NCBI GenBank assembly: GCA_963681505.1
Contig: OY811972.1
Coordinates: 15,791,110 to 15,855,109, forward strand
Direction: 5' to 3'
DNA length: 64,000 nucleotides
Source: Eunapius fragilis
Lineage: Eukaryota > Porifera > Demospongiae > Spongillida > Spongillidae
In this document: piece after piece, positions 50,012-53,000 of the stretch
How positions within the stretch are numbered: the stretch's first letter is position 1
Layout: each line of letters begins with the position of its first letter
The notes under the pieces: model-generated
What the model saw: the letters and a program-made list of their open reading frames with translations, nothing else
Database searches by the model: none
What the model was told of the DNA's origin: nothing
Translations under genes and position numbers: made by a program

Positions 50012-53000
50012 CTAATCAGGAGGGTTCTCCCCTTCCATCTTTGCCTTCTGTTCCTTTTCAACTCTCTTCATTTTGGCCACAATCCCTTAGAGACAAGAGG
50101 AGGCTAGTGAGGTGAGGTCCTCCATGTAAGGACTTACCTTTGGCAGGGTTGAACACCCCTCCAGTCTGCTGGCCACAGGCAGCACATCTTGTGGACTTCT
50201 TGAACTGATCCAGTGCACATACCTCACAGAAGTAGTGCTTACATCTGGGGAGGAGGGGGGACCAGATGGGGAGGAAGAGGCATATCATCACTTGATCACC
50301 TGATGGTACATGTACACACTTTCCCAAAAGTGCTTATTCATATGAAGGGAATCATATTGAATCAACTGAGTGTGCAGGTGTACCACTATGGACATGATGT
50401 GGTTCATAGATAAAGACTTCAGTAGCAATACATCATTTTGGGGTAAGGTTTGTATTCTGATGGACATGTATTACTATGTATAGGACATAAAAACACTGCA
50501 ATAACATGTTGTAAGGTTGAGGAGAGCCAGGTAGCCTTAGAGTCCTAAGGACTTTAGTGGAGAACATGTCCCACCTATCCCCATACATTGCTCAGGAATG
50601 ACATTGAGCTGAATATTGGTGGTAATTCATGACATTACATTGGCAGTGCGCTAATTGGGTTGCATGCTAAAGGCAAGATCATGGAGTGAGGGTACCAAAG
50701 AAATCATCAGAGATCACCTGACACTCTTAATCATTTTCATAGGATGCAGTTTTAAACACATGACCACAACCCTTACTGGTGGTTAACCAAAAGGGCTACA
50801 TGTGTATGTAGGGCTACTATGAATACCATCATGTACCAGAAAATCACAACAAGATGTAAAAAATGACATCCTCCTATCACGGGTGTTTCGGAGTGGACAT
50901 TTACGGATATTTAGATGTCCAATTGCCCATTTACGTAAAAATGATTTTGCTAGTCATTAACGCACTAACATATTCAAGGCCGGTTTCTGCTACGACCCAG
51001 TATCACTACGACTCTCCATTGATAACTCCATGCATAGTAATAGTCTAAGCACAAACCCAAATCAACTGCTCACATGTTTATCGCATTTCAACATACGGCG
51101 CAACGTTTCTAGTAATCACGTGCTCCTTAATTCGTTACAAGTGCATCTTTTGGTGGACTATTTGTGAGGCTCTCGAACTTCCAGGTGAGTTGTGACGATA
51201 AAATACAGAATCTAGGGGCATTGTAAAACAATCCAAGCTGTGTCACGTCTCGAGACGCGACGTCTAAGGCATATAAAATCGCTGTTGAAATCTATGAATA
51301 ATTATCAACATCTTGATTTTTATAGATGCTTTGCGATTGAGTTCCATTGCAGTCTGCTTACAAAACATTGCAGGGTGTGCGGTGGGAGATTGGTGGTGGC
51401 AAATAAATCAAAAAGACTCCCAATCTTACAAAAAAGAGCATTTGGTATTGATATGATCATTGATCATGTCACCTTCATTCTGCAAACCATGTATGGAGAG
51501 GGTGTTAAGAGGCAGAAAAAGCTCATACCATTCAGATGGTCATGCCCTACAAGTGGAAAGTCCACATGTGTGAAGTGAGTGAAGAGCAAATTATAACTGA
51601 ATTTAATTACATGATCACATTTAGGTTTGCCAGCATGTTGAGGTGCTTGTGAAAGGTGGCATGAAGAAAAAAGGTGACAAAACATACAGCCAAACATCAA
51701 GTGAATCACTACAGTCATTAGTTGCACATACAGAAATTGCACCAACAATTTCAAATGACTATCTGAAGTGTCCACTCGGCCATTGTGCAGACCAGTAGAG
51801 CTGCCATGCCGAAGTCATGTCTGTGCAGGATGTATCATAACATGCCTGACATTGTCAGCAAAGAACACATGTCCCTGTTGTTATGACAACTCACCTTTAA
51901 CTGCTTCCAGCATAAATGCAGCTCCTGACGTGTTCTTGTCCCTCCTAAGTGATGTACTGCTTCTATGCGACTCCCGTAAAACAGATCAAACATTTCAGCA
52001 GGAGAGTACCTCTCACATGTTTGCAACACTTTATCTCCTCCATGTGAAATGGATACTGAGGTACAAGTCGGCATCTGTAATTCAAAGAATGCTGTCTGAA
52101 AGCCCAGAGCCAAATGTTTTGCCGATTCCAACTAGAGTAAATCCAATTAATAAGTTTGAAGTCTTCAGGAACTGTCAGAACAAACCACAATTGAAGCACA
52201 GTAAGCAGTAAGTTGTAAACTATTGAAAAGATCACCAAAGAAGGCCTTAAATTGCATGATGGTCCGTTTGTGAAAAGTCACTATGTAACACTTCAGAACA
52301 TTGGGGTGGAGCCCAGCAATACTTTGGTTGCAACCCCATTCACAAGACTTGAAGGTCAGACAATTGTACTGAAAAGATACTTTATTAAGATCAAACTACA
52401 GTGTACTATTTCCTTGATTACAAGTTGTGCCTTCTATTCAGGACACAACTGTACCTGCATTTAAAAATTTACCGGTACTTTAAATTGCTACAGTTGTGTA
52501 GTAGTGTTTGCGCACGTTTCGCTCTACTCGTGCTCCGATTGGCTCTTGACTCGGGTCTGTTCATCCAACTGTACCAAGTCAAAAGTAGCAGTTAAAATTT
52601 TTAATGCGAGTACAATCGTGTAGCCACAGCTTGTAATCAAGGAAATACGATAATGGTTATCATTATATAGCTACTAACCTGAAAGTCTTGTGGTTGTCTA
52701 CAAAAAATGTGGCCCAGCCAAATCCTGTTCTCCTCATGGTTGCAGACAAATCTGAAGGGACATTTGCTACACTTGGAGCATGCCACTCCATCTATGACCA
52801 ATGTTTTGTAACAGATGGGAAATGTTGAGAGTTAGGTAATAGCAACATGACGTCACAGTGGATGAGTATTATTTTTCACATGAAGCTATAGTTCCCTTTA
52901 TGAACCAATTTCCCCAATGAACCAAAATGCACCTATTAGAGGAGCACACAGTTGAGTGGGTGAGAGGATACAACTTTTTGGATTTGGCGTGCTGGGTGAG

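Follow-up and report, generated by a model that had tools for sequence, protein, structure and literature searches.

A RAG1-like stretch in a sponge genome as part of a probable non-autonomous Chapaev-type DNA transposon

Does a stretch of sponge DNA with a RAG1-like RING finger also carry part of the RAG1 catalytic core? The question is raised by positions 51240-52835 of the 64,000-nucleotide stretch of Eunapius fragilis DNA analysed here (the window), which the original prediction read as a decayed RAG1-like sequence combining the two parts in one copy. With a probability of about 0.9, the stretch belongs to a DNA transposon of Chapaev type that is non-autonomous and has an internal deletion; in the subgroup concerned, the transposase begins with a Chapa zinc finger, similar to RAG1, and a RING.

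The limits of DNA homology in the fetched copies place 51240-52835 in the inner part of a repeat of 2,932 bp at 50878-53809. Its ends read CACGGGTGTT[T/A]CG on the two sides, forming a 13-bp imperfect inverted repeat. The following parts can be distinguished, L054 and L055 being longer relatives from the same genome.

50874..50877, no strand: left target-site duplication CTAT, from flank comparison.
50878..53809, plus strand: entire non-autonomous element, probably of Chapaev type, 2932 bp, bounded by the homology limit common to the fetched copies.
50878..50890, plus strand: left terminal inverted repeat, CACGGGTGTTTCG.
51336..51640 (right border estimated), plus strand: frameshifted remnant of the N-terminal zinc-finger region (Chapa, RAG1_imp_bd-like), with 84% DNA identity to L054.
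51762..52133, plus strand: RING finger, then zinc-finger/helical region, frameshifted at its start; match to the L055 RING region at E 9.3e-14 over 51783-52133.
52135..52140, no strand: internal deletion junction, about 1650 bp missing relative to L054.
52222..52398, plus strand: C-terminal region with the 'GPFVKS' block, 80% identical in DNA to L054 and, via L054, homologous to block 8 of L055.
52399..52650, no strand: insert of about 252 bp, nested in the element and bearing inverted-repeat arms; 20 of 20 copies have it, L054 does not.
52679..52828, plus strand: the block previously taken for the catalytic Asp, which, by the order in L054 and L055, immediately precedes the catalytic-Glu block.
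52867..53030, plus strand: remnant of the putative catalytic-Glu block, interrupted by a stop and a shift of frame; E 3.5e-7 to block 9 of L055.
53186..53329, plus strand: remnant of the transposase C-terminal tail; E 1.2e-6.
53797..53809, minus strand: right terminal inverted repeat, CACGGGTGTTACG read inwards.
53810..53813, no strand: right target-site duplication CTAT, from flank comparison.

The direct protein match of 51336-51392 to L055 reaches E 0.042 only, and the RING frame of the window is without its first Cys pair. Compared with L054, the blocks lost at the 52135-52140 junction are the helical, first-Asp, second-Asp and C-x2-C blocks together with most of PGLH. Neither the remainder of the window nor the 12 other loci searched gave a match to the nested insert. 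The decay that had been predicted for this copy is evident in its frameshifts, its internal deletion and its stop.

When 51216-52840, the inner 1.6 kb of the element, was used as query in a genome-wide DNA search, at least 40 copies were scored (132 candidates; the window copy counted), with 89-100% identity and on 19 of the 24 contigs. Thirty-seven of the 40 are near full query length and three are partial; 37 more short entries among the matches listed are inverted-repeat arms matching each other. Twenty of the 40 were fetched for analysis of ends and flanks, the window's own copy being L002. Both ends are intact and standard in 17 of them; they are altered in L008 and L018, and L010 has CAT at its left end. 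Target duplications of 4 bp flank 15 of the 20 (L019 judged by eye) and duplications of 5 bp flank three (L007, L016 and L017, two of them independent); the two copies with none are L008 and L018, both with altered ends. L016 (C5:4113910) and L017 (C5:4084512) are identical to each other, share their flanks and lie about 29 kb apart, likely as the result of a recent segmental duplication.

Divergence among the copies is small, the nearest relatives of the window copy differing from it by 0.5%. A short frameshifting deletion at the start of the RING is common to all 20 aligned copies (reference L048), and the internal deletion junction is unbroken in all 20. Since these two lesions and the nested insert are each present in every one of the 20, they are older than the spread, and the gene was already dead when its copies multiplied. 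It follows that the copies were probably mobilised by a transposase made elsewhere.

Longer copies of the kind that the original prediction suggested looking for include L054 and L055, both with terminal ends. L054 (contig C11) is a copy of 4,407 bp with the same ends as the window element and a GTGG duplication, broken into several frames; an intact autonomous copy with exactly CACGGGTGTT ends was not found in the genome. L055 (C13) is a relative of 4,518 bp; its ends are CACGGTTGTTTG / CACGGTGGTTTG and its target duplication is TATG. On one strand, it presents in order a Chapa-like N-terminus, a RING with a zinc finger, helical blocks, a first Asp (KIGGDKGG), a second Asp (GDYEFL), a C-x2-C, PGLH, GPFVK, the homologue of the supposed Asp block and, directly after it, a Glu block (GEQGAESIH) followed by the tail. 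From this order and from their motifs, the first-Asp and Glu blocks of L055 are putative catalytic Asp and Glu. The C-x2-C after the second Asp was recognised by eye in both, the two lying in different frames, and in L055 the second Asp and the C-x2-C are presumably split across an intron. The first two introns of L055 have GT-AG borders on inspection, and a C-x2-C pair becomes complete when the Chapa exon is joined to the RING exon. A third relative, L057 (C14), holds Chapa and RING together in one open frame of 363 aa. The first-Asp block of these longer relatives matches the Pfam family DUF1280 with E 2.7e-12 in L054, 1.1e-14 in L055 and 2.6e-17 in L057.

Such an association between the N-terminal region and the first-Asp block can be found repeatedly. 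RAG1_imp_bd (PF12560) has 76 matches in the genome at E <=0.01 (136 candidates, all scored) and none in 14 control genomes. Counted among the 150 first-Asp matches listed, of 300 candidates, at least 32 of the 76 are followed on their own strand by a first-Asp block 0.96-1.57 kb downstream, and at least three have one on the opposite strand; for 44, no first-Asp block lies within 4 kb downstream among the matches listed. When positions were shifted by 50, 100 or -70 kb as controls, no pairing was obtained among the matches listed. Some open frames in the genome are misleading: at C12:711714, a 622-aa frame was rejected as a useful transposase, being a short repeat array behind a single transposase exon, and a 1747-aa frame around a copy of the supposed Asp block on C18 is an artefact in which a run of N was translated as codons. 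In L056 (2212-4080), a transposase exon passes into an extended short-repeat array, open in several frames.

Regarding the front half of the window copy, its likeness to RAG1 is weak by itself and becomes significant through the longer relatives. For the frame 51759-52211, RAG1 is the best relative of solved structure, at a weak E 0.0087 (1rmd; next RING protein 0.21). The RING and zinc finger of L055 rank RAG1 first in the PDB set (E 1.2e-7; RNF168 2.2e-5), and with a three-sequence profile the RAG1 RING/zinc-finger structure comes first at E 9.6e-10, other RINGs following from 1.7e-6. The N-terminal Cys region matches PF12560 in L054 (E 6e-8), L055 (3.3e-5) and L057 (2.1e-12), the N-terminus of L055 alone reaching E 0.24 only against the PDB set. 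With L057 as query, the RAG1 chain 21wb_A is first in the PDB (E 6.5e-7); collinearity extends over 146-375 of the RAG1 chain 6oem_A (E 1.1e-5), with TRAF6 at 7.2e-6 on the RING part. The RING match of L057, E 0.0015, is under the cut-off of that family and stands in the same frame as the PF12560 match. Judged from these sequence comparisons, the front half is homologous to the N-terminal zinc-finger region and RING of RAG1, and on both the Cys pairs and the RING the original prediction was sound. The profile check proposed with it gave a divided result: a RAG1 signal was obtained for the RING, but six frames from the frameshifted window copy gave nothing significant in Pfam (best 0.064) and no RAG1 signal appeared at 52684-52835 in the PDB set.

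The catalytic core is another matter, and it bears on whether the element could be a decayed member of the true RAG1-like elements (RAGL or ProtoRAG type) with RING and RAG1 core. Such a reading would account for the RAG1-like RING and N-terminal region, and for the two independent copies with 5-bp duplications, RAGL elements having 5-bp duplications almost always (excerpt of PMC7204232). It had been claimed that 52684-52835 corresponds to the first catalytic Asp of RAG1. In L054 and L055, however, the homologue of this block follows the second Asp and PGLH and stands directly before the Glu; the first-Asp reading is therefore a misalignment, and block order refutes it for the window copy. Against the PDB set, no RAG1 match was obtained for the 52684-52835 block, no RAG1 or Transib match for the first-Asp block of L055, which matches DUF1280 instead, and no match for its Glu block. 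The resemblance to the first-Asp region of RAG1 is, on this evidence, a chance one. The true first-Asp block, of DUF1280 type in the relatives, is deleted from the window copy, so that a RING joined to a RAG1 core is not seen in this stretch, and the claim of such a combination falls. Genome-wide, the RAG1 core family PF12940 has a single candidate, L001, at 21.3 bits against a cut-off of 25 bits, in a search that matched none of the 14 control genomes and is of unproven sensitivity; the relatives of the L001 locus are Transib elements, and the candidate was rejected as RAGL because it belongs with a Transib family. RAG2 (PF03089) has no match in the genome, in a search likewise of unproven sensitivity, as the control genomes were silent too. 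Considering also the 4-bp duplications in 15 of the 20 copies, a RAGL-type origin is most improbable.

Two further explanations concern the front half. The window copy could be a mobile unit encoding only a RAG1 N-terminal-like protein, since its N-terminal part is retained and its first-Asp and second-Asp blocks are gone. The N-RAG-TP of Aplysia, described as consisting wholly of RAG1 N-terminal-like sequence (excerpt of PMC8355894), has in common with the present element that it is mobile and bears such a protein. However, remnants of the Glu block and of the C-terminus persist in the window and the longer relatives also bear DDE blocks, a distinction from N-RAG-TP drawn by description and not by sequence, which makes this explanation very unlikely. 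Alternatively, an unrelated host RING-finger gene or pseudogene might merely resemble RAG1: the window RING by itself scores poorly against Pfam (zf-RING_2 E 0.24), and for L057 a TRAF6 chain outscores the long RAG1 chains (7.2e-6 vs 1.1e-5). Terminal repeats, target duplications and many copies refute this by transposon anatomy, and the RAG1-specific family RAG1_imp_bd adjoins the RING; a host gene is next to impossible.

The Chapaev-type reading is reached through published hallmarks, the comparison with named Chapaev elements being one of descriptions rather than sequences. Chapaev elements generally have 3-4 bp duplications and CAC...GTG ends (excerpt of PMC4079192). Here, duplications are of 4 bp in most of the fetched copies as well as in L054 (GTGG) and L055 (TATG), and the CAC...GTG termini are standard at both ends in 17 of the 20. 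Two Chapaev subgroups are described as having Chapa followed by RING, and Chapaev is named from lancelet and sea anemone (excerpt of PMC4411706); the same order is found in the single open frame of L057 and in the exons of L055 with GT-AG borders. The clan is described as sharing a C(2)C motif behind the second Asp (excerpt of PMC12730594); the DDE core and C-x2-C, deleted from the window copy, can be seen by eye in L055 and L054. The link between DUF1280 and Chapaev is one that we infer. Against the assignment stand the two independent copies with 5-bp duplications, as in RAGL and Transib, the RAG1_imp_bd matches that have no listed first-Asp block downstream or have one on the opposite strand, the broken frames of L054 together with the failure to find an intact copy with CACGGGTGTT ends, and the differing frames of the second Asp and C-x2-C in L055. 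Measured by what characterises RAG1 and RAGL, the element has the N-terminal zinc-finger region and the RING but neither a PF12940 core nor, in the main, 5-bp duplications. With RAG1 itself it shares the RAG1_imp_bd match and a RING followed by a zinc finger, as in the RING/zinc dimerisation domain; unlike RAG1, no catalytic core of RAG1 type is recognised here and no RAG2 partner was found, the control being silent.

Chapaev elements that combine a Chapa zinc finger with a RING are already published (PMC4411706, excerpt), and the sponge element belongs to this known type: it is alike in its CAC...GTG ends, mostly 4-bp duplications, Chapa-like N-terminus, RING and DDE-type blocks, and differs in its sponge host and in that the window copy is internally deleted and non-coding. 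The titles and abstract openings covered hold nothing on Chapaev or RAG1 in sponges, and in PMC4298943 the sole match to the word sponge is a transposon called Spongebob; subscription papers and Repbase Reports were outside that scope, so the occurrence is not claimed as unreported.

A Transib family can be found apart from the element, comprising L042, L043, L045, L047 and others, with single open frames of up to 807 aa. L042 matches HzTransib at E 2.1e-27 and the ProtoRAG RAG1L at 2.5e-7. In two of six tested copies (L045 3803-6618 and L047 1697-4794), the ends are perfect over 15 bp, CACAGTGGTTTAAGA, and flanked by 5-bp duplications, CCATC and CTGTG; the other four gave no ends with 5-bp duplications. 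The first seven bases of these ends equal the V(D)J RSS heptamer. In comparison with the element, no RING was found in Transib, which shows 5-bp duplications in the two copies with ends and has a different core sequence. Transib (HzTransib, 6pqn) belongs to the same wider clan as the element (excerpt of PMC12730594) and is represented in this genome by separate copies with open frames.

An ancient origin has been argued for the fusion between a front of RAG1-like zinc finger and RING and the core of a transposase (excerpt of PMC4411706). The window copy itself is an ordinary dead passenger, but the sponge copies are useful for dating the N-terminal fusion of RAG1; the open Chapa-RING frame of L057 and the GT-AG copy L055 provide material for testing the age of the fusion and the role of a RING in a transposon. 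It can tentatively be suggested, as a possibility less likely than not, that sponges have a large, partly open-frame set of transposases with a complete RAG1-type N-terminal module (Chapa zinc finger, RING and zinc finger) fused to a DDE core, alongside Transib with ends whose first seven bases, CACAGTG, are exactly the RSS heptamer. Under vertical inheritance, the two halves of RAG1 as well as the signal sequence would have existed as transposons before sponges split from other animals; horizontal transfer is known for Chapaev, however (PMC4079192).

As to how the window copy reached its site, it would itself no longer encode a functional transposase. One made by intact Chapaev elements at other sites of the genome may recognise the CACGGGTGTT ends, excise the element by DDE chemistry and insert it at a 4-bp staggered target site, in this case presumably within an RNF113 intron on the opposite strand. 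The placement antisense in such an intron, part of the original prediction, is supported on one side: the flanking minus-strand exon at 50058-50333 matches zinc finger protein 183-like 1 (E 3.4e-14) and RNF113A (7.9e-13). The partner exon near 54.3 kb has no Pfam match and was assigned to RNF113 by eye. An RNF113 intron is very likely the site of the element, which lies opposite to the strand of the gene; splicing should remove it.

The sponge-like character of the genome, also predicted, agrees with a silicatein-type active-site exon in L062 (C3:8530250-8531250), where QGDCGASYAF has Ser for Cys. Silicateins are sponge proteins, and this exon supports a siliceous sponge as host. L058-L060 were rejected as silicateins, being cathepsins with the usual Cys; L061 has Ser at the active site but is divergent, at 35% identity.
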